Of a stretch of 64,000 nucleotides of DNA, positions 26,150 through 41,769 are shown piece by piece. Positions within the stretch are counted from its first letter, which is position 1, and every line of letters begins with the position of its first letter. Location of the stretch: positions 3,962,501 to 4,026,500 of the forward strand of contig NZ_JADBDT010000001.1 of NCBI RefSeq assembly GCF_014873485.1, written 5' to 3'. The notes below the pieces were generated by a model that was given only the letters and a program-made list of their open reading frames with translations, was not told the origin of the DNA and ran no database searches. The stretch comes from Sphingopyxis sp. OAS728. Its GTDB lineage: Bacteria; Pseudomonadota; Alphaproteobacteria; Sphingomonadales; Sphingomonadaceae. The position numbers and the translations under genes were made by a program.

Positions 26150-27307
26150 TTATTCGATCCGGGCGCCCACGGCGATAGTCGCTTTGGCCTTCAGCCATGG
26201 CTCGATGCGCCGGATCGCTTCTTCGACCTGATCGGTGGAGACGGCGAAGCTGATGCGGATGAAGCCCTTGCCGTCGACCGGATCGAAATCCAGCCCGGGC
26301 GCGATGGCCACGCCCGTATCGCGCAGCAATTCCTCGCAGAAGGAGAGGCTGTCATCCGTGAGATGACCGACATCGGCATAGATATAGAAGGCACCATCGG
26401 GCGGCGCGATCCGCCGCAGGCCCATTGCCGGGAGCGCTTTGAGCAGCAGTTCGCGATTGCGCGCATAGGTCTGGATATGGCCTTCGAGTTCGTCGCGGCA
26501 ATCGAACGCGATCAGCCCGGCGTGTTGGGCGAGCGAGGGGGGCGTCAGGAACAGATTGCCCATTCGGGCGCGGGCGGCGTCGATCAGTGCCTCCGGAACG
26601 ACAAGCCATCCAAGGCGCCAGCCCGCCATGCTGAAATATTTGGAGAAGCTGTTGACGATCAGCGCGTCGGGCGCATGCTGCAACATGGTGTCGGCGGGAA
26701 GCGTGTAGCTGAGCCCGTGATAGATTTCGTCGGATACAAGCGCGATGCCGCGGCGCTTGCAGACCTCGGCCAGCGCCCGAAGCTCGTCCGGCGGGATGAT
26801 GGTGCCGGTCGGGTTGGCGGGGCTCGCGACGATCAGCCCATCGGGCGCGGGCTCGAGACGCTCGATCGCATCGGCCGTGATCTGGAACCGTTCGGCTTCG
26901 CCGCACGCGAGCTCGACCGGCACGAGGTGAAGCGCCTTGAGCGTATTTCGATAGGCGACATAGCCGGGGCGCGCGAGCGCAACGCGGGCGCCGGGCGAAA
27001 ACAGGCACGAGAGGGCAAGGACGAAGGCGGGCGAGGCGCCGCAGGTGAGGATGATCTGTTCCGGATTGACGGCGACGCCATAGGTTTCGCCATAATGGGC
27101 CGCGATACGCGCCTTGAGGTCCGGACTTTCCCAATAGCCCATGCCGTCGGCGTCGAGGATGCGGTGCGCCGCCTCGATCGCCGCCGCCGGGGCACCGGTC
27201 GAGGGCTGGCCGAACTCCATATGGATCACCGACCGTCCCTCGGCGCGCATGCGATGCGCGAGACGGCTGATGGCGATGGCGTGAAAGGGATCGATGTCGA
27301 TCGGCAC
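26150..27307 (-). CDS. Class I/II PLP-dependent aminotransferase
   Basis: A 385-residue cytoplasmic aminotransferase of fold type I. The cofactor lysine is Lys223 in NSFSKYFSMAGWRLG; ASPANPTGT and VSDEIYHGL provide the Asn, Asp and Tyr that hold the cofactor, and FIRISFAVS the carboxylate-binding Arg. Amino donor and acceptor cannot be assigned. Translation starts at a GTG (27307) with GGAG ten bases before it. It lies 88 bases after the D-aminoacylase gene on the same strand, with a TATAAT-like box in the gap, so it may be the last gene of the peptide locus or have its own promoter. Confidence 0.9.
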   Translation of the reverse strand: MPIDIDPFHAIAISRLAHRMRAEGRSVIHMEFGQPSTGAPAAAIEAAHRILDADGMGYWESPDLKARIAAHYGETYGVAVNPEQIILTCGASPAFVLALSCLFSPGARVALARPGYVAYRNTLKALHLVPVELACGEAERFQITADAIERLEPAPDGLIVASPANPTGTIIPPDELRALAEVCKRRGIALVSDEIYHGLSYTLPADTMLQHAPDALIVNSFSKYFSMAGWRLGWLVVPEALIDAARARMGNLFLTPPSLAQHAGLIAFDCRDELEGHIQTYARNRELLLKALPAMGLRRIAPPDGAFYIYADVGHLTDDSLSFCEELLRDTGVAIAPGLDFDPVDGKGFIRISFAVSTDQVEEAIRRIEPWLKAKATIAVGARIE

Positions 27308-27326
27308 GGCGAACTGGCTCCACTAG

Positions 27327-27332
27327 ATTATA
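27327..27332 (-). promoter_or_regulatory. Candidate -10 box for the aminotransferase gene
   Basis: The minus strand reads TATAAT about 20 bases before the GTG start. No clear -35 element is visible at 17 bases, so this is only a candidate. Confidence 0.3.
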
Positions 27333-27395
27333 AAGATTTGTCGCTGCGCCTCCCTACCCGAAAAGCGTCGTTGGCCAAATTGCCGTGCGTGCGGG

Positions 27396-29021
27396 TCAGA
27401 TCGTCGAGCAGGTGTGGCGCAGGACGGCGCCGCTGCGGGACCCGGTGGGCTGTCCCTTGGTCAGTGCGACGACGCCGTTGACGATCACGTCTCCGATGCC
27501 CTCGGGTGCTGCGGTGGGCGCTTCATAGGTCGCGCGATCCTTGGTCGCCGCGAGGTCGAACACGACGATGTCGGCGCGCATGCCTTCGCGTAGCAGCCCG
27601 CGGTCGGCGAGGCCCAGTCGCTGTGCGGGCCAGCCGGTCATCTTGCGGATCGCGTCGGGCAGGGTCAGCACCGGGCGCGCCTGGACATATTCGGCGATGA
27701 TGCGCGGGAAGGTGCCATAGGAGCGCGGATGCGGCCGCCCCGCCGTCTCGGGATCTACCGTGCTGTCCGCCGCCGAGGCGTCGGTCCCGACGCTGACCCA
27801 CGGCTGTTTCATCGCGAGGTCGATGTCATTGTCGTCCATCATGAAATAGAGCGCCGAGGCGCGCGCGGGCAGCGCAGCGAGCCAGATGTCCCATGCGGCG
27901 TCGGCGGGATCCTTGCCCAGCGCCTTGCCGATGTCGGCGAAATTCTGGCCGTTGAAGCGCTTGTACTGTTCGGCCTGTCCGTTCGCGAGCACGACATTCT
28001 TCCAGCCGCCCGACGCATGGACGAGGTTCGACCAGTCGGGCTGCGGGCCCGCGGCTAGTTCCTTTTTGAGCTGCGCGCGGACAGCGGGGTCCCGCACCGC
28101 TTCATGCGCCGCCTCGCGGCCCTTCGCAAAGACATGCGTCGGCACGGTGACGTCGAGCCCGGTGCCGCCGGCGCGATAGGGATAGATGTTCGCGCCGATA
28201 TCGACACCGCGCGTCCGCGCCGCCTCGATCCGCGCGATCGCCTGCGGCATCAGCTTGCCCCACAGCGGCGCATAGGCGGCCTTGATGTGGAAAATCTCGA
28301 CCTTCGCGCCGCTGCGTTCGCCGATCGCGACCGCCTCGTCGATCGCGGCGAGCAATTTGTCGCTCTCGTCGCGCATATGCGTCGCGTAGAAGCCGCCGCA
28401 CTTGCCCGGGATCGCGGCGAGCCGGGCAAGGTCGTCGGTCGCCTGAAAGCTTGCCGGCGAATAGATGAGCGCCGACGAAATGCCGAACGCGCCCGCCTTC
28501 ATCGCGGTGCGCACTTCCTCTTCCATCGCGCGCATCTGCGTTTCGTCCGGCGCGCCGGCGCCATCGCCCATCACCTTCACACGCGCCTGGATCGCGCCAT
28601 AATAGGTGCCGAAATTGACCGCGATGCCCTGTGTCTCGAGCGTATTGAAATAGCCCGCCAGTTCGCCCGCGGGCACCGCGGTGCCGCCTTCGCCGGCGAT
28701 CAGCGTCGTGACCCCCATGCGCAGTTTGTTCGCGGCCGATCCGTCGCGCGGCAGCACGCGTCCCGACTGGTCGAGCATGTCGATGAAGCCTGGCGAGACA
28801 TAGCGCCCGCTTGCGTCGATTTCCTGCTTGCCCTTGGCCTCGACCACGCCGACGCGCGCGATGCGGCCGTCCTTGATCGCGACATCGGCATTGACCCACG
28901 GATTGCCAGCGCCGTCGAGCACACGGCCGCCGCGAATGACGATGTCATAGGCGGCGGGCGGCGGCGCGGCCGCGCCGACCAGCAGCAACGAGGCAAAGGC
29001 AAGCGCGAACGGCCGGGTCAT
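27396..29021 (-). CDS. D-aminoacylase / N-acyl-D-amino-acid deacylase homologue, altered metal site
   Basis: A 541-residue amidohydrolase-superfamily protein with a signal peptide (MTRPFALAFASLLLVGAAA). By family it would hydrolyse N-acyl-D-amino acids in the periplasm. The core motifs are His215 in YATHMRDES, His245 in EIFHIKAA and Asp414 in VGTDAS. Two ligand positions differ from the founder enzymes: PGFID is followed by MLDQ, so the first-strand HxH is replaced by Leu83 and Gln85, and the cysteine-bearing strand reads GEGG with Glu111. It may be a one-metal variant, since the tightly bound zinc of the founder uses the later histidines. It is fifth in a closely spaced leftward series starting with the M19 gene, 19 bases after a serine hydrolase. 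Confidence 0.85.
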   Translation of the reverse strand: MTRPFALAFASLLLVGAAAPPPAAYDIVIRGGRVLDGAGNPWVNADVAIKDGRIARVGVVEAKGKQEIDASGRYVSPGFIDMLDQSGRVLPRDGSAANKLRMGVTTLIAGEGGTAVPAGELAGYFNTLETQGIAVNFGTYYGAIQARVKVMGDGAGAPDETQMRAMEEEVRTAMKAGAFGISSALIYSPASFQATDDLARLAAIPGKCGGFYATHMRDESDKLLAAIDEAVAIGERSGAKVEIFHIKAAYAPLWGKLMPQAIARIEAARTRGVDIGANIYPYRAGGTGLDVTVPTHVFAKGREAAHEAVRDPAVRAQLKKELAAGPQPDWSNLVHASGGWKNVVLANGQAEQYKRFNGQNFADIGKALGKDPADAAWDIWLAALPARASALYFMMDDNDIDLAMKQPWVSVGTDASAADSTVDPETAGRPHPRSYGTFPRIIAEYVQARPVLTLPDAIRKMTGWPAQRLGLADRGLLREGMRADIVVFDLAATKDRATYEAPTAAPEGIGDVIVNGVVALTKGQPTGSRSGAVLRHTCSTI

Positions 29022-29040
29022 GCGGAAATCTCCCTGATTG

Positions 29041-30990
29041 TCAGTCCTCGACGTACAGATATTGCGTCTGCTGGCCGTCGTTGATGTTCAGCGTACGCTT
29101 GCCATCCTTCGTGCCGACGAGCGCATCGACGCCGATATTGCCGGGGCCGACCGAGATGATCGAGGTGCTGCCGTCGGCATTCTTGCGCGTGGCGATCGGT
29201 CCCTCGACGAAGCCCGCCTTGATCCATTTCTGGCCGTTCTTTTCGCTGACCGTGATCTGTCCGACCGACGGATCGCGATAATGGCCGGCAAGATTGGCGA
29301 GCACCGCGGGGTCGCCCGGATAGGTCAGCCGCTCGCGCTTGGCCGTCGCCTGCGCCTTGATCCGCGTCGCCGCCGCGGTGATGTCGCGCGCCGCCTCGGG
29401 CTGGCCGTCGTAGAGAATTTCGAGCAGGCGGCGGAGTGTCGGCGCGAGCATCGATGCGCCCGGATCGCTGTTGGTCAGGATCACCATGCCGACGCCCGAT
29501 TCCGGAAGCGCAAACCAGGTGCTGTGATAGCCGAGCAGCGTGCCGCCATGGGTGACGACCTGCACGCCCGAGGCGTCGCGCTGGAACAGGCCCATGCCGT
29601 ACCAGCTGTCGGGCCCGACCTGTACGCCCTTCTCGCGCCGCGCGAGCAAGTTGGTCTCGCTCACCACGCGCTTGCCGTCGAGCATGCCCTTGCCGAGTTC
29701 GAGCTGGACATAGCGCACCATGTCGGCGGTGGTCGAGAAGGCCGCGCCCGCGGGGCGATAGGGGTAGGGCGACCAGTTGAAGTCATTCGACATCAAGGTC
29801 ACCTTACCATCGATGTCGAGGCCGTGCGGCGCCGCCCAATTGCCCGCCATGCCCTCGGCATAATCGAAGGTGCTGTCCTTCATGCCGAGCGGCTTGAAGA
29901 CCTTTTCCTCCATCGCGCGGTCATAGGCGGCGCCGAATTCCATCTTGGGATAGAGAATATGTCCGCCGACATAGCCCGCCGCCGAGGCGAGCTGGTTGTT
30001 ATACTGGAACAGGTCGCCGAACTTGCTGGTCGGCATGGTCGCGGCAAGCTGTTTGAAGGTGTCTGCGGCGGGCTGCCCCTTGTCGGCGAGGATGAAGCCG
30101 AAATCCTTGCGCGGCAGGCCGGTGCAGGCGCAGATCAGATGCTTGACGAGCACCGACTTGGTGACCTCGTCATTGCCGAGGCGAAACTCGGGATAGAGGT
30201 CGACGACCTTTTCGTCCCAGCGCAGCTTGCCTTCGTCGGCGAGCGTCGAGAGGAGGAGGGTGGTCATTCCCTTGGTGTTCGACGCGATCATGAATTTGGT
30301 GTGCTCGTCGACCTTTTCGGGCGAGCCGAGTGCGCGGACACCGAAGCCGCCCTGCCACAATATCTTGCCGTCATCGATCAGCGCAAAGCCGACGCCGGGG
30401 ACTTCGAGTTCCTGCCGGCTCGCCTCGACGAAGTCGGTGAGCAGCTTGATGCGTTCGGGGGTCAGCTCGTGCGCGGTCTTTCCGGCGAAGCTTTCCTTCT
30501 GGAAACCGGCGGGGCGAAGACCTTGCGACACCACCGACATTGCCGCCGACCGCTTCGCGGCGGTGCCCGCCGATCCGTCGACGATCAGCACGGTCCACGC
30601 ACCGCCTTTGCGCAGCGCGCTTGCCGAACGCGCGGCGCGCTCGGTCGGCAGGGTTTCATAGGCGAAGCTCACCCGCTCGTCCCAGCCGTCGGCCGGGGGC
30701 GCGGCGGTGCTGGTGCGCTGCGTCGGCACCGCGCCCGGACGGACGACCGCCCACGCCTTGGCGGCGGCATCGGCGGCATCGGCGGCGGTGCCGATCTCGG
30801 CGACGACGATGCGGAGGTCACCCTCGGGCGAGGTGAAGACGAGCGCGGGGCCCTGCTTCGATGCGGTCCAGTCCTTGGGCTGGACATATTGCACGCCGCT
30901 GGCGAGCTTGCCGGGCGTATCCGCCGCGACGGCCTGCGCGAGCGCAGCGACGGGCGCGCAGGAGAGTGCGAGGGCGATCAACAGCTTCAT
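29041..30990 (-). CDS. Secreted serine hydrolase, beta-lactamase/D-peptidase fold, with N-terminal extra domain
   Basis: A 649-residue exported protein (signal MKLLIALALSCAPVAALAQA). Residues about 25-175 form an extra domain I do not recognise. The catalytic domain starts near 180 and carries S-x-x-K as SNTK (Ser237, Lys240), Y-x-N as YNN (Tyr330, Asn332) and THGGTLLG in place of KTG, the pattern of esterase, D-aminopeptidase and class C beta-lactamase relatives. A C-terminal lipocalin-like or DUF-type tail follows from about 560. It lies 12 bases after the second serine hydrolase gene and 19 before the D-aminoacylase gene. Activity on D-peptides is inferred from context only. Confidence 0.87.
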   Translation of the reverse strand: MKLLIALALSCAPVAALAQAVAADTPGKLASGVQYVQPKDWTASKQGPALVFTSPEGDLRIVVAEIGTAADAADAAAKAWAVVRPGAVPTQRTSTAAPPADGWDERVSFAYETLPTERAARSASALRKGGAWTVLIVDGSAGTAAKRSAAMSVVSQGLRPAGFQKESFAGKTAHELTPERIKLLTDFVEASRQELEVPGVGFALIDDGKILWQGGFGVRALGSPEKVDEHTKFMIASNTKGMTTLLLSTLADEGKLRWDEKVVDLYPEFRLGNDEVTKSVLVKHLICACTGLPRKDFGFILADKGQPAADTFKQLAATMPTSKFGDLFQYNNQLASAAGYVGGHILYPKMEFGAAYDRAMEEKVFKPLGMKDSTFDYAEGMAGNWAAPHGLDIDGKVTLMSNDFNWSPYPYRPAGAAFSTTADMVRYVQLELGKGMLDGKRVVSETNLLARREKGVQVGPDSWYGMGLFQRDASGVQVVTHGGTLLGYHSTWFALPESGVGMVILTNSDPGASMLAPTLRRLLEILYDGQPEAARDITAAATRIKAQATAKRERLTYPGDPAVLANLAGHYRDPSVGQITVSEKNGQKWIKAGFVEGPIATRKNADGSTSIISVGPGNIGVDALVGTKDGKRTLNINDGQQTQYLYVED

Positions 30991-31002
30991 GATGGCTTCT
31001 CC

Positions 31003-32487
31003 TCAGGGCTGGACGAAATGATAGAGAACATGCGGTTGTGACGTGAAAGACAGGCGCCAACGCCCTTCGGCGCCGTGGAACAGCAATTGCTCATAGGGGC
31101 CGCCGGCGCGGGCGCCGGTGGCCTGTTCGAAGCGCATCGGGCCGACGCGTTCCCAATAGGTGGTCTTCCCGTCGTTGGTGACGGTGACCGCGTTCGGGCC
31201 CGCGGCGGCGATCTTCAGGTCGCGCTCGGGATTGGCGGCGCGCGTATAGTCGCGGCGGTTCACGCGATAGGCGCCGAGCGGCAGCGTCTCTCCCGCTGGC
31301 GCGGCGACGCGCGGGGCGGGGGCGACCGGGAACAGCCGGCCGATCAGCGCCTCGGTCAGTTCGGTCCGGCCGCCATAGCTGCCCTCGCCGCCGGTCTCGG
31401 AGACGAAGAAGCCGAGCCCGGCTTCGGGTGCGAGGATCATGTTCGAATGGAAATCGCCGGTGTTGCCGCCATGGCCGACCATGCGCGGACCCTTCTCGCG
31501 GACGACGAAAAAGCCGTGCGCCATGCCGGGCAGGCCGGGGGCGTTGGCGACCGAATTGGTCATCAGCAGTTTGACCGACGATGGTTTCAGGATGCGCGCC
31601 TTGCCGAGCGCGCCGCCGTTCATCATCGCCATCATGAAGCGTGCCATGTCGGGGCCGCTGCTCGTCCCCGATCCCGCGGGCATCACCGGGCTGAACAGCT
31701 CGAACGGGTCGGCGACCAGCCGCCCGTCCTTGAACTGATAGCCCGACGCCATGCGCGGTGCGAGCGCCGCGGGCAGCGGTTCGCGAAAGGTGGTCGAATT
31801 CATGCCGAGCGGCGCGAAGATGTGCTTTTCGACATAATCGGGGAAAGCTTCGCCCGACACCCGCTCGACGATATAGCCCGCGAGCACCGAGCCATAGTTG
31901 GAATAGGAGGTTTCGGTCCCTGGCGCCCAATGGCGGACCGGAATGTGGGTCTTCATCCACTCCACATAGGGGGTGATCTTGTCGGGCGTCGGCGCGGTCA
32001 GGCCGCCTACATCGCTCATCCCCGGCGTGTGCGATAGCAGGTCGCGAACGCGGATCGGCTTGCCCTCAAACTCGGGAATCTTGAAATCGAGATATTTGTT
32101 CACATCGGCGTCGAGGTCGACGCGGCCCGCCTCGACCTGTTGCAGCAGCGCGCTCCAGGTAAACATCTTCGACACCGATCCCGGGCGGAACAAGGTCTGC
32201 TGCCCATCGACCGCGATGCCCTTGTCGATGTCGGCAAAGCCGTAGCCGCGCGAGAACAGGACCTTGTCATGGTAGACCACGGTGACCACCGCGCCTGCGA
32301 CCTCGCGCGTCGCGATCTGCTGCGCCATTACGCCGTCGACGAAGTCGGCGAGCCCGCTGATCCGGTCCTGCGGGATGCTGTAGCTGGTTTCGGCGGCCGA
32401 CTGCGCGAGGGTGGCAGAGGGCAGGGCGATCGAGCCGAGCAGCGCGGCGGCGAATGCGGTGCGGCGCAGGGCCGGGAGTCGGGTCAT
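31003..32487 (-). CDS. Secreted serine hydrolase, beta-lactamase/D-peptidase fold
   Basis: A 494-residue exported protein with signal peptide ending LPSATLAQ. The active-site set is SVSK (Ser104, Lys107), YSN (Tyr195, Asn197) and GHGGNTG, as in esterases EstB, alkaline D-peptidase and penicillin-binding-protein-like hydrolases. The C-terminal 110 residues form a separate beta-rich region ending VLYHFVQP. It is distinct from the longer paralogue just downstream. The gap to DgcN upstream is 25 bases. I infer a role in trimming D-amino-acid-containing peptides in the periplasm; an esterase role is equally possible from sequence alone. Confidence 0.87.
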   Translation of the reverse strand: MTRLPALRRTAFAAALLGSIALPSATLAQSAAETSYSIPQDRISGLADFVDGVMAQQIATREVAGAVVTVVYHDKVLFSRGYGFADIDKGIAVDGQQTLFRPGSVSKMFTWSALLQQVEAGRVDLDADVNKYLDFKIPEFEGKPIRVRDLLSHTPGMSDVGGLTAPTPDKITPYVEWMKTHIPVRHWAPGTETSYSNYGSVLAGYIVERVSGEAFPDYVEKHIFAPLGMNSTTFREPLPAALAPRMASGYQFKDGRLVADPFELFSPVMPAGSGTSSGPDMARFMMAMMNGGALGKARILKPSSVKLLMTNSVANAPGLPGMAHGFFVVREKGPRMVGHGGNTGDFHSNMILAPEAGLGFFVSETGGEGSYGGRTELTEALIGRLFPVAPAPRVAAPAGETLPLGAYRVNRRDYTRAANPERDLKIAAAGPNAVTVTNDGKTTYWERVGPMRFEQATGARAGGPYEQLLFHGAEGRWRLSFTSQPHVLYHFVQP

Positions 32488-32512
32488 GCAGGGTCTCCGA
32501 AGATCAGGGGGT

Positions 32513-33553
32513 TCATGCGAGGCAGCTGTCGACGAGCGCGTCGAACGCGGGGCCGCCGCGGACCGGATCGGCGACTGGCAAGCCGAGCCGCGCGCTCTCG
32601 CGCGCCATCAGCTCGGTCGCCGCCGCTTCATCGAGCGCCGAGGTGTTAAACGCAAAGCCGCCGCAGCGGATCGCGGGATTGGTCCGCCGACCGAGCAACA
32701 GGGTGAGCTCGACGATCTCTTCGACGCTGGTCAGCGTATAGCCTGCGGTGCCGAGCATCTCGGTGCGGCCGGGCTCGTGGCAGACGACGAAGACATCGGG
32801 CTGGCTACCGTGGAGCAGGCCGAGCGACACTGCGGCATAGGCGGGGTGCGTGAGCGCGCCCTGACCCTCGATCACGTCCCAATGGCCCGCAGGTGCATCA
32901 GGCGAGAGCAGTTCGGCCGCCCCCGCCTCGAAGTCGGAGACGACCGCGTCCATTGCGATGCCGCCGCCCGCGATCATGATGCCGGTCTGGCCGCTCGCGC
33001 GAAAATCGCTATCGATGCCGCGCTGCCCGAACGCGCGGGCCAGCGCCAGCGCGGTATATTTCTTGCCGAGCGCGCAGTCGGTTCCAACGGTCAGCAACCG
33101 CTTGCCGCTGCGCTTTCGCCCGGTGCCGACCGGAATCTGTGGCGGCGGCACGCGCACGTCGATCAGCTGGCGGCCGAGCCGGTGCGCCGCTTCGGCGAGT
33201 TCGGGGATATCGGCGAGGCGCATATGCATGCCCGCGATCAGGTCGAGCCCCGCCTCCAGCGCCTCGACCAGCGATGCGCGCCAGTTCGCGGGGATCACGC
33301 CGCCGAGGTTGGCGACGCCGATCACCAGCGCGCGCGCACCGCGCGCATGCGCTTCGGCGGCGGTGAGTGCTTCCAGCCCGGTGGTAACCGTCGCGCCGGG
33401 CAGCCGCAGTTCGCCGATGCATTTGTCGGGCGCCCAATCCTTCAGCCCGAAGGCGGTCTTTGCGAAACCCGCGATCGTCGTGTCGCCGAGGAACAGCACA
33501 TAGGGCTGCGGCAGTATGAGCGCGCCCGCGAGGCGATCGGTCAGTGCGTTCAT
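32513..33553 (-). CDS. dgcN: DUF1611 protein, DgcN-like D-glutamate N-acetyltransferase
   Basis: A 346-residue cytoplasmic protein of the DUF1611 family. Members called DgcN acetylate D-glutamate in marine bacteria, where DgcA then racemises the product. The family hallmarks are clear: FLGDTTIAGFAKTAFGLKDW, the P-loop-like GTDCALGKKYTALAL (from residue 157), DFRASGQTGIMIAG, HWDVIEGQGALTHPAYA and GLLHGSQPDVFVVCHEPGR. No signal peptide is present, unlike its neighbours. The start overlaps the M19 stop by one base (TGATG), which suggests coupled translation. No dgcA-like epimerase is found in this window. The function is taken from the family and is not certain for this clade. Confidence 0.85.
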   Translation of the reverse strand: MNALTDRLAGALILPQPYVLFLGDTTIAGFAKTAFGLKDWAPDKCIGELRLPGATVTTGLEALTAAEAHARGARALVIGVANLGGVIPANWRASLVEALEAGLDLIAGMHMRLADIPELAEAAHRLGRQLIDVRVPPPQIPVGTGRKRSGKRLLTVGTDCALGKKYTALALARAFGQRGIDSDFRASGQTGIMIAGGGIAMDAVVSDFEAGAAELLSPDAPAGHWDVIEGQGALTHPAYAAVSLGLLHGSQPDVFVVCHEPGRTEMLGTAGYTLTSVEEIVELTLLLGRRTNPAIRCGGFAFNTSALDEAAATELMARESARLGLPVADPVRGGPAFDALVDSCLA

Positions 33554-34698
33554 CAGCCGCCCCAGGTTGCGGTCAGCAGCCGCTGGAAATTGCCGCCGAG
33601 CACGGCGAGGATGTTCGCGTCGGAATATTTGCGGCGCAGCAGCTCTTCGGTCAGATCGAACATCTTGAGCGGGTGGTCGAACCCGTCGATGTCGATCTTT
33701 TCGCGGAAGGCGTAGCTGTCCTTATAGGCGCCGCGCAGCATCTTGTTCATCTCGGGCGACGTGTCGTCATAGCCATAGAGGTCGGAATCGGTGCCGACGC
33801 CGACATGGTCGATCCCGACGAGCTTCACGACATGGTCGATATGGTCGGCATAATTCACGATCGTCGTCGGATCGGTCTTGCTCACGAAATTGCGCACCCC
33901 GGTTATGCCCATAACGCCGCCCTTGGCGGCGCAGGCCTTGATCGCCTCGTCGGTCTTGACGCGCGGATGATCGATCAGCGCGCGGCAATTGCTGTGCGTG
34001 ATCGCGATCGGCTTGGCCGAAATTTCGATCGCGTCGAGGGTGGTACGGTCGCCGCAATGCGAGACGTCGACGAGCATGCCGACCTCGTTCATCGCCTTGA
34101 TGATCTCGACGCCGAAATCGCTGACGCCGCCATCGACACGGTCGGTCGACCCCGATCCGATGCGGTTCTGCGAATTATAGGTGAGCTGCGCGCAGCGCTG
34201 GCCGATCTCGTAGAAGGTCTTGACGTCGGCAGGACGATTGAAATGGTCGGCATTCTGCAGCCCCATGATCACCGCGACCTTGCCGTCCTTCTTGGCGCGC
34301 AGGATGTCGGCGAACTTGTCGACCCCGGTGAAGACATGGCTGTTGCGCGCGACGAAATTGCCCCAGATCGCAAAGAAGCTGAGCGCCTGTTCCTTTGCCG
34401 TCGGGCCGCCGATGCCGACCGCATGGTGGATGGCATTGATGCCGCTGGCGCGAAAGTCCGCGGTCTCCTTTTCGCTCAACGCCTTGGTGTAATAGCTGGG
34501 GTCGAAGTCGATCTTGATCGGCGCGAGCATGTCGACCACGACCGCACGCTGGACCAGCTCGATCGCGCGCTTCGAATATGCGCGGTTCGTGAACGGGCTG
34601 ATCCGGACCTGCGCCCGCGCGACATAGGGGGCGGCGAGGGGAACCGCGATCGCCGCGCCCGCGGCACAAATGGCCTGTCGTCGAGAAAATAACATCAT
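33553..34698 (-). CDS. M19 membrane dipeptidase homologue, Tat-exported, altered metal site
   Basis: A 381-residue renal-dipeptidase-family protein. The N-terminus MLFSRRQAICAAGAAIAVP is a twin-arginine export signal. Conserved elements include DVSHCGDRT (His214), ITHSNCRAL (His235, Arg239) and GVGTDSDLYG. The H-x-D pair of the first strand is missing: VVVDMLAP has Leu58 and Pro60 where His and Asp should be. The bridging glutamate is Gln148 (GLQNADHF). The two-zinc site of classical members therefore cannot form as usual. Family members cleave dipeptides, including those with a D-residue at the C-terminal side. It is the first gene of the leftward peptide-locus operon, behind a strong dyad at 34725-34754. 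Confidence 0.86.
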   Translation of the reverse strand: MMLFSRRQAICAAGAAIAVPLAAPYVARAQVRISPFTNRAYSKRAIELVQRAVVVDMLAPIKIDFDPSYYTKALSEKETADFRASGINAIHHAVGIGGPTAKEQALSFFAIWGNFVARNSHVFTGVDKFADILRAKKDGKVAVIMGLQNADHFNRPADVKTFYEIGQRCAQLTYNSQNRIGSGSTDRVDGGVSDFGVEIIKAMNEVGMLVDVSHCGDRTTLDAIEISAKPIAITHSNCRALIDHPRVKTDEAIKACAAKGGVMGITGVRNFVSKTDPTTIVNYADHIDHVVKLVGIDHVGVGTDSDLYGYDDTSPEMNKMLRGAYKDSYAFREKIDIDGFDHPLKMFDLTEELLRRKYSDANILAVLGGNFQRLLTATWGG

Positions 34699-34724
34699 CG
34701 TCCCCCATTCATCGGCATGAAGTT

Positions 34725-34754
34725 TCTAATCAGGACGATATTGTCCCAATTAGA
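34725..34754. promoter_or_regulatory. 30-base operator-like dyad upstream of the M19-dgcN operon
   Basis: The element is a near-perfect palindrome with matched blocks TCTAAT, GGAC, a central ATAT, GTCC and ATTAGA, spaced 2, 1, 1 and 2 bases. It lies 27 bases before the M19 start codon, where a repressor or activator would act. The half ATATTGTCCNNAWTAG recurs upstream of the TonB-dependent receptor (36790-36805). No dedicated regulator gene is seen in the locus. Confidence 0.6.
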
Positions 34755-34798
34755 TATCGTCAATCATTTCCTTCGAAGCCGAAGAACATGCCCGGAAT

Positions 34799-36682
34799 TC
34801 ATCGCACGACCGGCAACTCGACATAGGAAAGGCGGCCCGGCGCATGATGGATGACATTCGTTGCGACGACGCCCTTGCTCTCGCGCTCGTTCGGCCCGCC
34901 GGTGTTGAGGTTGCGCACGAATTTGGGGAAGTTGGACGAGGTGACCTCGATGCGGATGCGGTGGCCGGCGCCGAAACGGATGCTCGTCGCGATCGGCGAC
35001 GGCTTGATCGGATAGACCTCGCCCGGGCGCATCATCGCCGGCTTGTCGAAGCCATCGCGATAGCGCGCGCGAAAGATCGTATCGCCGATGATCCACGCGG
35101 TGCCGTCGGGTGCGACGTCGACCAGCTTCACCGCGAAATCGGTATCGGGCGCGCTCGACGAGACGTGGAGCAGCGCGTCGACGAAGCCGCTCACCTCGAT
35201 CGCCTCGGTCAGCGGCTCGGTCGAATAGACGAGCACATCGTCGCGGATCTCGACCCCGCGCTGGTCGAACGCGCCGGGGATCACGATCCCGCCGTTGCAG
35301 CAGTCGCCGCCGCCCACCGTCGGGACGGGGTTCATCGGATCGTAGCGGAAGCGGTCGGGCGTGTCGGTGCCGGGCGCTGCGGCGACCAGGCGGCCGCCGC
35401 CGTTGAGGCTGTTCGCGTCGCCGCCGCTGTCGAGATACAGCCGCAGCGGCTTGGTGCCCTTGGGCGGCCAGCTTTCATTGCTCCGCCACTGGTTCGCGCC
35501 CATCGCGAAATAGCGGACGTGCGGCGTCGAATCGGGGAAGGCCTTTTTGTCGCCCTTCAGCCAGCGGTCGAACCAGCCGAACACGGCGCCATCGACGTCG
35601 AAGCTCGTGTCGCCCATCGAACGTTCGCCGACGACACTATCCTTGCCGAGGCGCGAATAGCCGCAGTGGGTAACGGGTGCGATCACCGCATATTGGTTTG
35701 CGGCGGCTTCGGCGTCGGTCTTGCTCGCGCGGGCATGGTTGAACAGCTCGAGATTGGGGCCGATCGAGACGTCGTACCAGCTGTTGAACCACAGCGCGGG
35801 CACGCCCCAGCCCATGTCGTCGTGATACAGCCCGCCCTCGCGCCAGGCCGGGTCGGCGGGCGAGCGCGCGATCAGCGTGTCGAAGGTCTGCGGCGGCTCG
35901 CCGAGGCTCGACAGCAAGCTATCGACTGGCAGGTGCTTGATATGCTTGTTCCAGTCGACCTTGGGCTTGGTCGCGGCGAGATCGTTGTTGAGCGTCGCGC
36001 GGGCGCGGGTGGCTTCGTCGATGTCGGCGGGAAGCTGGGCGCGGACCGGATTGTCGACACCATAGAGCCAGACGAAAAACAGGCTGCGTGGCACGCCGCC
36101 GGTGTACCAATTGCCCTGTTCCTGAAAGCGGCCGACCTTGCCGATCCCGGCGCCCGCGGCCATCGGCACCATCGCCGCATGCGCGGGATGGTTCAGCCCG
36201 GCGAGCGCGAGCTGCCATTCGGCCGAGGACGAACAGCCGAGCGTGCCAACCTTGCCGTTCGACCAGCCTTGGCCTGCGATCCAACTTAGTGTGTCGTACC
36301 CGTCGGTCTGTGGCTTGCCGAGGATCTCATATTTGCCTTCGGAGAAATAGCGGCCGCGCTCGTTCTGGACGATGAAGACATAGCCGCGGCGCACCGCCTC
36401 GATCGCATAGCGCTGGGTCGATCCGCGCAACTTGTGCTCATTATAAGGTGTCTTCCACAGGATCACCGGCAGGCGGCCCTTGGCGTTCTTTGGCGTGTAG
36501 ATGTTGGTCGACAGGCGAACCCCGTCACGCATCGGCACCATCACCGCGATGCGGGAATCGGCGAGCGTCGCGATTTCGCTGTCCAAGGCTTCCGGCGTAT
36601 ATTTCGACAGGTCCTGTGCCGCGGACGGCTGCGCCGCGACGGCGGCAAGAACCAAAGCAAGCGGCGAGCAAAAGCGCAACAT
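34799..36682 (-). CDS. Secreted CocE/NonD family hydrolase, variant nucleophile elbow
   Basis: A 627-residue exported alpha/beta hydrolase of the CocE/NonD family (cocaine esterase, glutaryl-7-ACA acylase, X-Pro dipeptidyl peptidase relatives). The signal peptide is MLRFCSPLALVLAAVAAQPSAAQ. The N-terminal catalytic core has VPMRDGVRLSTNIY and NERGRYFSEG. The nucleophile region reads GTLGCSSSAEW (probably Ser151) instead of the usual G-x-S-Y-x-G; WYDVSIGPN and APVTHCGYS hold the Asp and His. A C-terminal jelly-roll domain follows. I choose the start at 36682 because GGAG precedes it at proper spacing; the ATG at 36697 would add MTELP. It is divergent from the TonB receptor. Confidence 0.88.
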   Translation of the reverse strand: MLRFCSPLALVLAAVAAQPSAAQDLSKYTPEALDSEIATLADSRIAVMVPMRDGVRLSTNIYTPKNAKGRLPVILWKTPYNEHKLRGSTQRYAIEAVRRGYVFIVQNERGRYFSEGKYEILGKPQTDGYDTLSWIAGQGWSNGKVGTLGCSSSAEWQLALAGLNHPAHAAMVPMAAGAGIGKVGRFQEQGNWYTGGVPRSLFFVWLYGVDNPVRAQLPADIDEATRARATLNNDLAATKPKVDWNKHIKHLPVDSLLSSLGEPPQTFDTLIARSPADPAWREGGLYHDDMGWGVPALWFNSWYDVSIGPNLELFNHARASKTDAEAAANQYAVIAPVTHCGYSRLGKDSVVGERSMGDTSFDVDGAVFGWFDRWLKGDKKAFPDSTPHVRYFAMGANQWRSNESWPPKGTKPLRLYLDSGGDANSLNGGGRLVAAAPGTDTPDRFRYDPMNPVPTVGGGDCCNGGIVIPGAFDQRGVEIRDDVLVYSTEPLTEAIEVSGFVDALLHVSSSAPDTDFAVKLVDVAPDGTAWIIGDTIFRARYRDGFDKPAMMRPGEVYPIKPSPIATSIRFGAGHRIRIEVTSSNFPKFVRNLNTGGPNERESKGVVATNVIHHAPGRLSYVELPVVR

Positions 36683-36771
36683 CGGCAACTCCGTCATCCC
36701 ATGTTTTGGGCCCGATTCGACCCCGGAGGCTTAGAGACCTCAACCCAAACCCCTTGTCAATTATGGGCTTA

Positions 36772-36789
36772 ATTTCTCATAAAAGAAAT
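36772..36789. promoter_or_regulatory. Perfect dyad upstream of the TonB receptor
   Basis: ATTTCT and AGAAAT flank CATAAA in the 198-base gap between the divergent CocE/NonD and TonB-receptor genes. The region is the most AT-rich of the locus and probably holds both promoters. Confidence 0.4.
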
Positions 36790-36791
36790 AT

Positions 36792-36811
36792 ATTGTCCTG
36801 AATAGGACATT
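36792..36811. promoter_or_regulatory. Second dyad upstream of the TonB receptor, related to 34725-34754
   Basis: ATTGTCCT and AGGACATT form an imperfect palindrome (7 of 8 pairs). Bases 36790-36805 match the right half of the M19-operon dyad at 13 of 16 positions, including ATATTGTCC. A shared regulator is a reasonable guess. Confidence 0.5.
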
Positions 36812-36880
36812 ATGGCAGCTTCCTCGGACGGGACACGGAAAAGCCGCCATCGAGCGGCCCAGCAAAAAGGGGCGGAAAAG

Positions 36881-39646
36881 ATGCGTAAGGATAGTGAGAA
36901 GCTCGGTTACCGGATCGCGCGCGGCAGCAGCATTGCGGCGTTGGCTGCGGGCTTATTGCTCGCCGTGCCCGCTGCGGCACAGACTGTCGCCGATACGGAG
37001 GCCACGGCTGACGAGGAGATTCTCGTCACGGGATCGCGCATCGCGCGCGCCGGTTTCGATCAGCCAACCCCCACCACGGTGATCGGCGAGGATGAATTGC
37101 GCCTCGGCGCGCGCCCGAACATCCAGCAGGTGCTGAACGACCTTCCGCAAATCCGCCCCACGACGACACCGACGGTGTCGAACGGCAACACCTCGACCGG
37201 CACCGCGCCGGTCGACATGCGCGGCCTCGGTTCGAACCGTACGCTCGTGCTGCTCGACGGCCGCCGCTTCGTTGGTGAGGGCAATCTGAATTTCATCCCG
37301 ACGAACCTGGTCGAGCGCGTCGAGGTTGTGACGGGCGGCGCCTCGGCCGCCTGGGGTTCGGGCGCGGTCGCGGGCGTCGTCAACATCCTGCTCGACAAGG
37401 ATTATGACGGTCTGTCGGTTGGCGGCAATTTCGGCACTTCGTCGCGCGGCGACGGATTCCGCTATGGCTTCGACGCGAAATTCGGGACGGGGTTCGCCGA
37501 CGGGCGCGGCCATTTCATCATCGGCGGCGAATATGTCAAAGATGAGGGCGTGATCCAGCGGAGCACGCGGCCGCAGCTCAACAGCCCCGATTTCATTCCC
37601 TCGGGCACCGGGTCGGAACTGGTCCGCGACGTGAATTTCGGCAACGTCACCTTGGGCGGTCTCATCACCAGCGGCGTGCTTGCCGGGCAGACCTTCAACG
37701 CTGACGGCACGCTGCGGCCTTTCGATCGCGGCACGGCCGTCGGTGCGGGCGCTTTCCCGCTGCGGATGGTCGGCGGTGCGGACGGCATCAATCTCTATGA
37801 TACCATTCCCGTTTCGTCGCCCTTCGAGCGGCTGAGCACCTATGCCCGGCTGAGCTTCGAAGTGGGTGACGCGACCTTCTGGGTCGACGGCAGCTATGCG
37901 CGCTCGCTGTCGAATGCGCCCTTCTTTGGCGACTACACCGTCGGCGGGGCGCTGGGCCTGCCATATCTCACGATCCAGGCAAACAACCCCTATCTGTCGA
38001 CGGCTGTTCGCGACCGGCTTGCTGCCGCAGGCGAGACAAGCTTTACCTTCGGCCGCTATTTCAACGACATCCTGCAACTGCAGTTCCGCGGCGAGCGGGT
38101 GAGCAAGGAAGGCGCGATCGGCGTCGACGGCACGTTCGGCAACGGCTTCCGCTACAAGGCCTGGTACAGCCACGGCGAGGTCGAGAGCGACCAGACGATG
38201 GGCAACTCGCGCCTCGTGCGGCAGTTCAACAATGCAATCAATGCGGTATCGAGCGGGGGGCAAATCGTCTGCGCGATCAATGTCGACGCCAACCCGGCCA
38301 ACGACGATCCCGCGTGCCGGCCGCTCAATCCCTTCGGCCCCCTGAATGCGTCGCCCGAAGCGCGCGCCTATGTCACGGGAGCGCAGCGGGCGTTCAGCAC
38401 CTCGAAGCTCGATTCGGTGGGCGCCGAAATTCAGGGCGATCTTTTCTCGCTGTGGGCGGGCCCGGTAACCTTGGCGGTCGGCGCCGAGGCGCGTTGGGAA
38501 GAACAGGTGTCGTCGCGCGACGACTTCACGGTCGCGAACGCCAGCAACTTCGGCATCCTCGTCTTTTCGGCGCCGACTTCGGGCGGGTTCAACGTCAAGG
38601 AAGCCTTCGGCGAAGTGCTGTTCCCGCTGCTCAAGCTCGAAAATGCGGTGGAGATCGATCTGAGCGGTGCCGCGCGCTATTCCGACTACAGCACCAGCGG
38701 CGGCATCTGGACGTGGAAAGCCGGCGGTACTGCGCGTTTGTTCAACGACCTGCTCCTGCGGGTGACACGCTCGCGCGACATTCGTTCGCCGGGCATCGGC
38801 GAGTTGTTCGCGCTTCGTTCGATCAACATCGGACCGCTCAACGATCAGGACCGGGCCGGGCGTGCGGCGGCGAACCCCGCCTATAACCCGCAACCCTCGA
38901 CCGTGACGACGTTCACCGGCGGCAACCCCAATCTGGTGCCCGAAGTGAGTTACACGACGTCGATCGGCGCGACATTCTCGCCGTCCTTCCTGCGCGGCTT
39001 CAGTGCTTCGGTTGACTATTACAAGATCAAGATCGACGGTGCGGTTACGGCGCTTAACGGATCGAACCTCACTTTGCTCTGTTCGCGCGGGGTCACTTCG
39101 GCCTGCGATGCTGTTACGCGCGATGCGACGGGGACCGTCACCCAAGTCGCCGCCACCCAACAGAATATTGCGAGCTTCGAGACGAGCGGGCTCGACATGG
39201 AGGCCTCCTATGTCACCCGGCTTGCCACTGGCGGCAGCATCCGGCTTCGCGCGCTCGCGACCTATGTCGACAAGCTGGTGTTCGATACCGGCGTTACCCG
39301 GGTCGAGACGGCGGGCGACGTCGGAGATTCGGTGCAGCGCGCGACGCCGAAATGGCGCGGAACGCTCAGCGCGACTTATGAGGATAGCAATGTCGGGTTC
39401 GACATTCGCGCGCGCTATATCGATGGCGGCAATTACGATCGGACGCGCACGACGCTGATCAATAACAAGATTGCTTCGCGAACCTATGTCGACCTTGGCG
39501 CGCGGTTCAAGATCGAGGATCGCTTCACGCTGTTCGGCAACGTCAACAATGTGTTCGACCGCGATCCGCCGCTGATCACCGTGAACAGCACGCTGTACGA
39601 CGTCGTCGGCCGCTACTTCACCGTCGGCGCGCGGGTCGATTTCTAG
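36881..39646 (+). CDS. TonB-dependent receptor
   Basis: A 921-residue outer-membrane receptor for energy-driven import of a bulky substrate. The signal peptide ends VPAAAQ, a TonB box-like EEILVTGSRI follows, then the plug domain (PTPTTVIGEDELR, VDMRGLGSNRTLVLLDGRR, VERVEVVTGGASAAWGSGAVAGVVNI). The long barrel ends GRYFTVGARVDF with terminal Phe. I start at 36881 because GGGGCGGAAAAG precedes that ATG; an in-frame ATG at 36812 would run through the dyad region's edge and add 23 basic residues before the signal. The CocE/NonD gene follows 19 bases later, so import and hydrolysis are linked. The substrate is inferred to be a peptide. Confidence 0.92.
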   Translation: MRKDSEKLGYRIARGSSIAALAAGLLLAVPAAAQTVADTEATADEEILVTGSRIARAGFDQPTPTTVIGEDELRLGARPNIQQVLNDLPQIRPTTTPTVSNGNTSTGTAPVDMRGLGSNRTLVLLDGRRFVGEGNLNFIPTNLVERVEVVTGGASAAWGSGAVAGVVNILLDKDYDGLSVGGNFGTSSRGDGFRYGFDAKFGTGFADGRGHFIIGGEYVKDEGVIQRSTRPQLNSPDFIPSGTGSELVRDVNFGNVTLGGLITSGVLAGQTFNADGTLRPFDRGTAVGAGAFPLRMVGGADGINLYDTIPVSSPFERLSTYARLSFEVGDATFWVDGSYARSLSNAPFFGDYTVGGALGLPYLTIQANNPYLSTAVRDRLAAAGETSFTFGRYFNDILQLQFRGERVSKEGAIGVDGTFGNGFRYKAWYSHGEVESDQTMGNSRLVRQFNNAINAVSSGGQIVCAINVDANPANDDPACRPLNPFGPLNASPEARAYVTGAQRAFSTSKLDSVGAEIQGDLFSLWAGPVTLAVGAEARWEEQVSSRDDFTVANASNFGILVFSAPTSGGFNVKEAFGEVLFPLLKLENAVEIDLSGAARYSDYSTSGGIWTWKAGGTARLFNDLLLRVTRSRDIRSPGIGELFALRSINIGPLNDQDRAGRAAANPAYNPQPSTVTTFTGGNPNLVPEVSYTTSIGATFSPSFLRGFSASVDYYKIKIDGAVTALNGSNLTLLCSRGVTSACDAVTRDATGTVTQVAATQQNIASFETSGLDMEASYVTRLATGGSIRLRALATYVDKLVFDTGVTRVETAGDVGDSVQRATPKWRGTLSATYEDSNVGFDIRARYIDGGNYDRTRTTLINNKIASRTYVDLGARFKIEDRFTLFGNVNNVFDRDPPLITVNSTLYDVVGRYFTVGARVDF

Positions 39647-39665
39647 GATCCGGAACGTCGCGGCT

Positions 39666-41567
39666 ATGAGAGGTTCGATCCGCTACGGTCTTGCGCTGCT
39701 GTTCGGCGTTGTTGCCGGCGGCGCGGCGATGGTGCAACCGGCGGCTAGTCCGCCGGTTGCAGCCGCCCAAAGCCTTTCGGGCTATGAAGCGCAGGATGTG
39801 ATGATTCCGATGCGCGACGGCGTTCGTCTGCACGCGCAGATATGGCGTCCGAAAGGCCATGTCGGCGAACTCCCCATCCTTATGACGCGGTCGCCCTATG
39901 GTTTCACCAAGGCCCGCATCGACACCGGCCTCAGCAAGTCGGGGGGCTATGGCGAGCTCGCCGAGGACAAGTTCATCTTTGTCTTTCAGGACATCCGCGG
40001 CCGCTTCGGTTCCGAAGGCGAGTTCGTGAACCTGCGGCCGCTCAAGAAGACCGCCGACGGCATCGACGAGGCGACCGACACATATGACAGCATCGACTGG
40101 CTGGTAAAAAACCTGCCCGGCAACAATGGCAAGGTCGGGGTGTTCGGCGTGTCCTACGGCGGCTGGACCGCCGCGGTGGCGACGGTGAATCCGCATCCTG
40201 CATTGAAGGCGGTGACCTCGCAGGCGTCGCCCGAAGACATGTTCATCGGCGACGACTTCTTGCACAATGGCGCCTTCCGGCTCGACTATGCCTGGTCTTG
40301 GGTGTCGGCGCTCGAGACCGACGGCCGGACGATGAACGCGTTCGATTTCGGCACCGACGATGCCTATGACTGGTATCTGAAACAGTCCGACCTCGCGAAT
40401 ATGGACCAGCGGCTGCTCGGCCGTTCGATGCCAAGCTGGCAAAACTTCGTTTCGCACCCAAATTACGACAGCTTCTGGCGCGACAGCCGCACGTCGCACA
40501 TGATGCCGGCCAGGGTCGCGGTTCCCAATCTGATCGTTGCCGGCTGGTGGGACCAGGAAGATTTCTATGGCCCCATGACGATCTATGCCAATCAGGAGAA
40601 GGGCGACGATCGCGGCCTGAACTATCTGGTCGTCGGGCCGTGGAACCACGGGGGCTGGCGCGGCGAGGGCAGAAAATATGGCCCGTTCGAACTGGGCGGC
40701 AAGACGGGGCAATGGTTCCGCAGCACCGTCGAGCTTCCATGGTTCCGCTATTGGCTAAAGGGCGTCGGCAAGCTCGATCAGCCCGAGGCGCTGGTCTTCC
40801 AGTCGGGCAGCAACAAGTGGCAGCGCCTTTCGCGCTGGCCCGCCGTCGAAGGCAAGCGGCGCAACCTCTATCTGCATCCCGACGGCAAGCTTTCCTTCGA
40901 CGCGCCGAAGTCGCGCAAGGGCGCCAGCAGTTTCGTTTCGGATCCGGCGAACCCGGTCCCCTATCGCGACCGGGCGATATTGAAGCCGTTCATGCGACCG
41001 GGATCGGAGTGGTCGACGTGGTTAGCGGACGACCAAGCCCCCTTTGCGAAGCGCAAGGACGTCTTGTTCTGGCAGACCGAGCCGCTGGCCGAGGATATGA
41101 CCGTCGCCGGCGATATCGCGGCGCGCCTGTTTGCCAGCACAACGGGCACCGATGCCGATTGGGTGGTCAAGCTGGTCGATATCTACCCGTCCGACGCGGC
41201 GACGCCTGAGGGTTTACGCGGGCGTCAGCGGATGATCGCGAACGACGTGTTCCGCGGCCGCTTTCGTACCAGCTATGAAAAGCCAGCAGCGATCAAGCCG
41301 GGCAAGGCGCTGGAATACAAGATCGACCTCCATTCCGCGTCGCATGTGTTTCGCAAAGGGCACCGCATCGGGGTGCAAGTACAGAGCAGCTGGTTCCCGC
41401 TGATCGACCGCAACCCGCAGACCTTCGTGCCCAATATCCTGAAAGCCAAACCCGGCGACTATCGCGCGCAGACGCATTCGGTCTTCTATTCGCGCGATCT
41501 GCCTTCATCGATCTCGATGGCCGTGGTGCCCGGCGAAGCGGACAGGCTGCCGGTCGGCGGCCAATAA
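39666..41567 (+). CDS. Secreted CocE/NonD family hydrolase
   Basis: A 633-residue exported hydrolase, paralogue of the gene at 34799. The signal segment is about residues 7-35. The catalytic set is canonical: Ser163 in GVFGVSYGGW, Asp in AGWWDQEDFYG and His in GPWNHGGW. IPMRDGVRLHAQIW and FQDIRGRFGSEG mark the core, and the C-terminal jelly-roll starts near residue 400. The family acts on esters and amides, including acyl side chains of beta-lactams and X-Pro peptides. It is 19 bases downstream of the TonB receptor gene and almost certainly in its operon. A hairpin follows the stop codon. Confidence 0.91.
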   Translation: MRGSIRYGLALLFGVVAGGAAMVQPAASPPVAAAQSLSGYEAQDVMIPMRDGVRLHAQIWRPKGHVGELPILMTRSPYGFTKARIDTGLSKSGGYGELAEDKFIFVFQDIRGRFGSEGEFVNLRPLKKTADGIDEATDTYDSIDWLVKNLPGNNGKVGVFGVSYGGWTAAVATVNPHPALKAVTSQASPEDMFIGDDFLHNGAFRLDYAWSWVSALETDGRTMNAFDFGTDDAYDWYLKQSDLANMDQRLLGRSMPSWQNFVSHPNYDSFWRDSRTSHMMPARVAVPNLIVAGWWDQEDFYGPMTIYANQEKGDDRGLNYLVVGPWNHGGWRGEGRKYGPFELGGKTGQWFRSTVELPWFRYWLKGVGKLDQPEALVFQSGSNKWQRLSRWPAVEGKRRNLYLHPDGKLSFDAPKSRKGASSFVSDPANPVPYRDRAILKPFMRPGSEWSTWLADDQAPFAKRKDVLFWQTEPLAEDMTVAGDIAARLFASTTGTDADWVVKLVDIYPSDAATPEGLRGRQRMIANDVFRGRFRTSYEKPAAIKPGKALEYKIDLHSASHVFRKGHRIGVQVQSSWFPLIDRNPQTFVPNILKAKPGDYRAQTHSVFYSRDLPSSISMAVVPGEADRLPVGGQ

Positions 41568-41597: not shown

Positions 41598-41769
41598 AAT
41601 CGGCGAATTGCGATTGGCCCGCTCGCATGCGGACCCGGCGCGCTGGCTTGCCTGCCTCGTTTTGTCGCGATGCTGCTGATTAACCACTCGTTTCAGTGTG
41701 CGCGTCATCATCTTCTGCTATCGATGCAGCCAACACGGCGTGTCGGTGCGCCATGAAGGATTATCGGGC

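Follow-up and report, generated by a model that had tools for sequence, protein, structure and literature searches.

In the genome of Sphingopyxis sp. OAS728, nine genes between positions 26150 and 41567 of the stretch analyzed here (the window, 64,000 nucleotides, bases 3,962,501-4,026,500 of a 4.92-Mb genome in a single contig) probably constitute a satellite of a regulon for the utilization of D-amino-acid-containing peptides. An earlier note on this DNA had described the nine genes as a candidate locus for the uptake and breakdown of D-amino-acid or N-acylated peptides. Uptake and breakdown of peptides containing D-amino acids is still the best reading of the locus, but the window alone does not hold a complete pathway, as the racemase, carrier, and regulator are encoded at paralogous loci. 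Gene content, co-occurrence, paralogy, and an operator recognized by sequence make a regulon of two loci likely, with the satellite in the window and a sister locus carrying the same operator.

In the proposed mechanism, we infer the substrate, the enzyme activities, the direction of regulation, the binding of the XRE protein, and the cell compartments beyond what signal-like N-termini indicate. The TonB-dependent receptor would carry D-residue-containing peptides (or esters or amides) across the outer membrane, to be cleaved in the periplasm by the exported S12 hydrolases and the M19-like enzyme and, where present, by the D-aminoacylase-like and CocE enzymes. A YkvI-type carrier of the LeuT fold, encoded at the sister locus, would take the resulting D-amino acid or small D-peptide across the inner membrane. 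In the cytoplasm, the DgcN-like protein of the window (DgcN2) would N-acetylate the D-amino acid, the DgcA2 racemase from the sister locus would convert the N-acetyl-D to the N-acetyl-L form, and a putative deacetylase would free the L-amino acid, from which the aminotransferase could take off the nitrogen. The XRE-cupin regulator of the sister locus would control the M19 operon through the common operator.

All nine genes are confirmed as open frames, and their Pfam and NCBIfam matches agree with the families named in the earlier note (Table 1). The coordinates also agree with its spacing values: the M19 and DgcN2 frames overlap by one base (its value of 1), gaps of 25, 12, and 19 bases follow down to the D-aminoacylase homologue, and 19 bases separate the receptor from the hydrolase that follows it. 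The aminotransferase gene lies 88 bases beyond the D-aminoacylase homologue in this leftward series. Upstream of the M19 operon, on the same strand and across a 100-base gap, is the first CocE gene; the receptor and the second CocE gene run in the opposite direction. Export, as the note had it, is likewise indicated by signal-peptide-like N-termini, scored with a simple hydrophobicity rule instead of a trained predictor, on the two S12 proteins (BL1 and BL2), the D-aminoacylase homologue, both CocE proteins, and the M19 homologue, whose hydrophobic N-terminus has an RR motif; the same rule finds none on DgcN2 or the aminotransferase. Gene calling in this GC-rich DNA relied on codon usage, with the score trained on ten genes of the window.

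Judging from model scores and motifs, DgcN2 is a subfamily apart from canonical DgcN. The identification of the window protein as a DgcN homologue stands for family and fold, since its model matches the solved structure of DgcN-25328 (7xrj; E 1.2e-40, TM 0.77 by query length), which is also matched by sequence. It does not extend to the equivalog, as the protein reaches 438 bits against the 480-bit cut-off of the NCBIfam DgcN model NF041892. The P-loop reads GTDCALGKK in 96 of 98 DgcN2 copies and GTDCSVGKM in 15 of 18 canonical copies. Among the matches listed, the closest named relatives of the window DgcN are 94-96% identical and come from Sphingopyxis-like strains. The genome has four DUF1611/DgcN copies, at the window and at loci L012, L014, and L016. 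Locus L016 is canonical, with DgcN (510.1 bits) and DgcA (422.3 bits) above their NCBIfam cut-offs and a sodium:dicarboxylate symporter, whereas the two sister copies (460.5 and 445 bits) fall below 480; those at L012 and L014 are 70% and 75% identical, respectively, to the window DgcN.

L012 and L014 are fuller DgcN2 modules. Besides S12 and other hydrolases, they encode a DgcA-like racemase, a YkvI-type membrane protein, and an XRE regulator; HTH and cupin domains were identified in the L012 regulator. Counterparts of the window genes at these loci and at L015, the continuation of L014, include the D-aminoacylase homologue (64% identity), the M19 homologue (65%), the first S12 hydrolase (41%), and the receptor (47%; 46.7% to the L015 receptor). 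Whole-genome searches placed no DgcA, YkvI, or XRE match inside the window. There are four DgcA matches in the genome, and the racemase paralogues have the N-acetyl-D-Glu racemase DgcA as best match, one above and two below its cut-off; the DgcA2 type comprises the L014 copy (the query, 100%) and the L012 copy (64%). The YkvI-type protein, named after source annotations, is matched by no Pfam or NCBIfam model. Its structure model (mean pLDDT 90.1) resembles carriers of the AdiC, LAT, BetP, and Nramp type (APC/LeuT fold), a fold that spans several substrate classes.

Gene neighborhoods were counted over 7.5 kb on each side of DgcN or of the center of a control region, with labels by best BLAST match and DgcN2 taken at 66% identity or more; redundant DgcN sequences, loci reaching under 7.5 kb on one side, and copies of intermediate identity were set aside. 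Loci from named genomes are the best 80 of at least 274, and the 99 genomes of the family are a sample from a larger group. Genes for S12 proteins of any type lie near DgcN2 at 75 of 77 loci, near canonical DgcN at 6 of 15, and at none of 20 controls. The corresponding counts are 63/77, 0/15, and 0/20 for YkvI; 58/77, 15/15, and 0/20 for DgcA; 56/77, 6/15, and 2/20 for TonB receptors; 48/77, 0/15, and 0/20 for XRE; 38/77, 0/15, and 0/20 for the M19 subfamily; and 27/77, 13/15, and 0/20 for D-aminoacylase types. The SDF symporter is found at 0/77 DgcN2 loci, 10/15 canonical loci, and 0/20 controls. Conserved co-occurrence, which the earlier note had set in advance as the test of its reading, was thus found, with S12, racemase, carrier, M19, and receptor genes far above controls. 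The clustering of the window genes is not due to chance. CocE (10/77), BL2 (9/77), and aminotransferase genes (4/77) are seen near DgcN2 and at none of the 15 canonical loci or 20 controls; all three have just a loose connection to the system. A scan of 124 stretches shows a POT-family peptide transporter in 20 (one locus enters twice, and one is canonical), against 0/20 controls, with two examples identified by Pfam.

Across the 99 family genomes, DgcN at E ≤ 1e-60 is found in 24, and DgcN2 (at least 67% identical to that of the window) occupies 16 places in 12. DgcA2 (E ≤ 1e-90) occurs in 11 genomes, comprising 10 of the 12 DgcN2 carriers and one of the 87 others (Fisher 4.6e-11); G005 and G063 have DgcN2 without DgcA2, and G011 has DgcA2 beside a DgcN of 56%. 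At the same threshold (E ≤ 1e-90), the M19 subfamily is present in 8 of the 12 carriers and in none of the 87 others (Fisher 2.9e-9), and all nine copies in the 99 genomes are no more than about 2.8 kb away from DgcN2. Among the carriers of DgcN2 loci are Sphingopyxis, Sphingomonas, Sphingobium, Novosphingobium, and Altererythrobacter, as well as Lysobacter, Rhodanobacter, Rudaea, Steroidobacter, and Povalibacter. A Glu/Leu/Phe/Val dehydrogenase (10 loci) and an Lrp/AsnC regulator (12 loci) are often found four to six genes beyond DgcN2, as at L082:15194-16839 and similar places. One genome (G085) has seven DgcN-like copies, five of which are 48-61% identical to that of the window and have other neighbors.

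Among the best 80 named loci, gene orders recur across genera. Type A reads XRE - S12 - DgcA - M19 - TonB receptor - DgcN - YkvI - S12 - second M19, type B (such as L014) is a variant with additional hydrolases, and type C, the order of the window, is receptor - (CocE) - M19 - DgcN - S12 - S12 - (D-aminoacylase - aminotransferase). A quick maximum-likelihood tree built from 119 DgcN proteins recovers as separate groups the 17 canonical rows (support 99), type B (99), and eight type-C rows including the window (100); L020 and L069, labeled type C, fall outside the eight-row group. Its nearest neighbors, L064 and L065 (support 84 at the join), have DgcA, YkvI, and XRE beside them, and the tree is compatible with loss of these three genes from the type-C locus without proving the direction of change. 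Within the type-C clade, the receptor, M19, DgcN, and both S12 genes are present in 8/8, the first CocE gene in 5/8, and the D-aminoacylase and aminotransferase genes in 4/8 each. The treatment of all nine genes as one unit therefore has to be given up in favor of the core receptor - M19 - DgcN - S12 - S12 with a variable remainder. The three relatives with a D-aminoacylase gene preserve the 19-base gap between it and BL2, and at L095, a type-A module, a 75% identical relative of the window aminotransferase directly follows the second M19 gene.

In all ten genomes searched that have type-C or mixed loci, best matches to DgcA2 (62-100% identity), YkvI (64-100%), and XRE (66-100%) were found, at the same locus in G012 and outside the analyzed stretch of the type-C locus in the other nine. 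The window is a reduced version of the module that lacks racemase, carrier, and regulator, which it seems to have in common with the sister cluster.

Matrix scores indicate that the operator of the type-A XRE-cupin regulon is present at the M19 promoter of the window. The gap between the XRE and first S12 genes contains a conserved promoter-operator, TTTGACAATTTTCtAATCAGGATCATTATGTCC, which was found by k-mer enrichment in the regulator intergenic regions; in the same regions, a search for strict gapped palindromes gave weak words only, and a guessed TTTCA/TGAAA pattern had no match. With a matrix of 47 sites beside XRE genes, none from the genome of the window, the site before M19 (34722-34749) scores 28.2 bits, against at most 5.3 in ten shuffled windows that preserved single-base composition only. 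In 321 kb of this genome, the sites of at least 8 bits are those of L012 (52.4) and the window and two others of 16.4 and 9.6 bits. Genome-wide, the operator pattern is matched with up to two mismatches at just two sites, those of the window and L012; seven further sites have three mismatches, and a reversed control gives three sites at up to three. Since the pattern was written to include the window variant, the zero mismatch there is by construction, and the matrix result is less biased.

A site of at least 12 bits lies upstream of 31 of 43 M19-labeled genes, three of which (L020, L031, and L081) are XRE-adjacent, and of 0 of 328 control-region genes. The count for BL1b (51/81) is partly circular because the matrix sites adjoin XRE genes, and no such site precedes YkvI, BL1, or the D-aminoacylase homologue. 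The type-C orthologue L061 has a lower score of 8.1 bits. A related pattern allowing up to two mismatches, widened after some type-C sites had been seen, matches the M19 promoter of type-C loci in seven of nine relatives with 0-2 mismatches at checked positions. It also matches the XRE promoter without mismatch in five of the nine, and in G012 and G106 it matches sites inside their modules. The reversed pattern has no match in any of the nine; two-mismatch sites also occur at unrelated places in most of these genomes. Before the receptor of the window, the palindrome GTCCTGAATAGGAC is a possible second operator: the exact form GTCC-N6-GGAC is found upstream of 8 of 14 receptors and the looser [GA]TCC, 2-7 bases, GGA[CT] upstream of 12 of 14, both uncontrolled counts.

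The family assignments of the M19 and D-aminoacylase homologues made in the earlier note stand, but part of the metal-binding residues is missing from both. Binuclear M19 dipeptidases carry, as residues of renal dipeptidase, a first metal motif HxD and a bridging Glu. The window homologue passes the Pfam PF01244 cut-off (259 vs 26 bits), and its subfamily lacks both features, having DMLAP in 43/45 members, GxQN in 44/45, and DxHxD in 0/45, with the later His and Asp motifs in 45/45. The second M19 type of the module retains standard metal motifs, with DTHxD in 34/35. In D-aminoacylases and N-acyl-D-Glu deacylases, the HxH motif and a Cys bind metal. Both are absent from the window homologue, whose best solved relative by sequence is N-acyl-D-glutamate deacylase (3gip); its group has HxH and GNCG in 0/25, GE[GA] in 24/25, and two other His motifs in 25/25. 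The inclusion of N-acylated peptides among the substrates had drawn on this homologue without HxH and is not supported in that form. Decaying pseudo-enzymes were considered and rejected, because the changes are fixed across many relatives, which points to altered active sites rather than decay; with the known metal ligands missing, the named activities are unsafe. S12 serine hydrolases are characterized by SxxK, YxN, and HxG motifs, which are intact in both window proteins (SVSK, YSN, and HGG in BL1; SNTK, YNN, and HGG in BL2). BL2 has extra regions both before and after its Pfam domain.

Several observations weigh against the D-peptide reading. Peptides are a presumed substrate; DgcN2 and DgcA2 score below the NCBIfam cut-offs and may differ in chemistry; and the family names of the M19 and D-aminoacylase homologues, given their missing metal ligands, may overstate possible activities. 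D-aminoacylase-type genes are commoner beside canonical DgcN than beside DgcN2, the enrichment of BL2, CocE, and aminotransferase genes over controls is not significant (Fisher 0.2, 0.12, and 0.58, respectively), and the loci are related by descent, so that the counts are not independent. As for the operator, the 16.4-bit site lies in an unrelated region of the genome, the matrix rarely matches before receptors (4/36) or DgcN (8/104), and the M19 promoter is absent from the pattern matches in two of the nine relatives.

The DgcN-DgcA D-glutamate pathway, in which an N-acetyltransferase is paired with an N-acetyl-D-Glu racemase, employs the same two enzyme families as the module. The locus could serve peptidoglycan turnover, with the receptor and S12 enzymes processing stem peptides and DgcN2 and DgcA2 taking the released D-Glu as another route for free D-Glu. 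S12 matches that include DD-carboxypeptidases and AmpH-type models, as well as the relation of the amidohydrolase to N-acyl-D-glutamate deacylase, would suit such a role. However, the genome already has the canonical pair beside its symporter gene at L016, DgcN2 bears its own P-loop signature, and the SDF symporter is never near DgcN2. Peptidoglycan turnover is considered unlikely. Compared with the DgcN-DgcA pathway, the DgcN proteins of the window and sister loci score below the cut-off, lie outside the canonical tree group, and stand among exported hydrolases and a TonB receptor, and the window has no DgcA. It is quite unlikely that only the M19-DgcN-S12-S12 core is one system with the receptor, CocE, D-aminoacylase, and aminotransferase genes as chance neighbors. 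The patchy presence of the last three in the type-C clade would fit, whereas the receptor is constant there, receptors and D-aminoacylase homologues recur at DgcN2 loci and are rare or absent at controls, and the 19-base gap before the D-aminoacylase gene persists in all three relatives with it.

Of the systems known to us, the mlr cluster (mlrA-F) for microcystin degradation in sphingomonads comes nearest in combining S12, M19, D-aminoacylase, and POT genes. It unites, as the module does, an S12 hydrolase (MlrB), an M19-like dipeptidase (MlrE), a D-aminoacylase (MlrF), and a POT-like transporter (MlrD), and by this analogy the locus might break down one defined secondary metabolite, such as a nonribosomal or cyclic peptide that contains D residues and ester bonds; the CocE/NonD esterases would suit depsipeptides. 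This is very unlikely, as DgcN2 occurs in several alpha- and gammaproteobacterial families, in some genomes in more than one copy, which suggests common substrates over one compound. Furthermore, MlrE (DTHID and MEN motifs) and MlrF (HxH) retain metal motifs that the window enzymes lack. No DgcN or DgcA is present among frames of at least 250 residues at L182:3500-12500. At this locus MlrE and MlrF lie next to S12 and POT-like genes. Among the 15 genes scanned with Pfam from 23077 to 44306 of the window, none resembles MlrA or MlrC. MlrE was rejected as the nearest relative of the window M19 homologue, since it lies nearer to the module's second M19 type (M19b43). The mlr cluster of Sphingosinicella microcystinivorans (L182:3013-11406) was located by its described gene order (PMC4520899), and its frames were read directly, as the codon-usage caller performed poorly there. 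That genome (G107) has fifteen M19 family matches. In the portions available, two further reports give no function for mlrE and mlrF (PMC6563193; PMC6167471). Uptake of N-acyl-D-amino acids has been suggested for a gammaproteobacterial TonB receptor encoded beside a D-aminoacylase gene, in a report whose available portion mentions no DgcN module, operator, or sister locus (PMC3400609).

Beyond the D-peptide satellite in the window, it is tentatively proposed that a widespread proteobacterial regulon consists of hub loci (XRE-cupin, S12, DgcA2, DgcN2, YkvI, M19, and TonB receptor) and satellites like that of the window, which together would import D-residue peptides and pass the D-amino acid through N-acetylation and racemization. 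Its DgcN/DgcA branch would be specific for something besides free D-Glu, and its TIM-barrel hydrolases would act at a reduced metal site. A literature search that ran partly on titles and abstract openings, with most subscription papers outside it, yielded no description of the module. In soil and water, the D-amino acids of peptides and cell-wall remnants belong to the organic matter that is difficult to use, and the module, with its receptor, exported hydrolases, carrier, racemization route, and operator, would offer a concrete way to tell which organisms use such peptides. The operator opens the question of the substrate to direct testing, as any compound that releases the XRE-cupin protein from it is probably the substrate or an intermediate. 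The module would also provide a context for YkvI-type membrane proteins and for the M19 and D-aminoacylase homologues whose metal sites are altered.

Table 1. Genes and candidate regulatory sites of the locus (window coordinates).
Feature	Position	Strand	Evidence and remarks
Class I/II aminotransferase, variable member	26150-27307	-	Pfam PF00155; no signal peptide seen
D-aminoacylase-like amidohydrolase, probably exported, variable member	27396-29021	-	Pfam PF07969; lacks HxH and the NCG cysteine
BL2, probably exported S12/beta-lactamase-fold hydrolase	29041-30990	-	Pfam PF00144, 170.9 bits, residues 187-520 of 649
BL1, probably exported S12/beta-lactamase-fold hydrolase	31003-32487	-	Pfam PF00144, 214 bits
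DgcN2, DUF1611 protein resembling N-acetyltransferase DgcN	32513-33553	-	Pfam PF07755/PF17396; no signal peptide seen
M19-like hydrolase, probably exported, first gene of leftward operon	33553-34698	-	Pfam M19, 259 bits
Putative operator/promoter before M19 operon	34722-34754		Near-palindrome CTAATCAGGAC-N6-GTCCCAATTAG; TTGACG-N17-TATCGT on the minus strand
CocE/NonD hydrolase, probably exported, variable member	34799-36697	-	TIGR00976, 343.8 bits
Palindrome GTCCTGAATAGGAC before TonB receptor, candidate second operator	36795-36808		Only 4.5 bits with the matrix
TonB-dependent receptor	36812-39646 (alternative start 36881)	+	Pfam plug and barrel
CocE/NonD hydrolase, probably exported, weakly linked	39666-41567	+	TIGR00976, 294.2 bits; 19 bases 3′ of receptor

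Directly after the second CocE gene, Pfam identifies a hybrid histidine kinase (41698-43938) and a response regulator (43935-44306). Farther along the window, a frame at 49348-51825 has a weak outer-membrane usher match (PF00577) and, together with its neighbors, possibly belongs to a chaperone-usher cluster.

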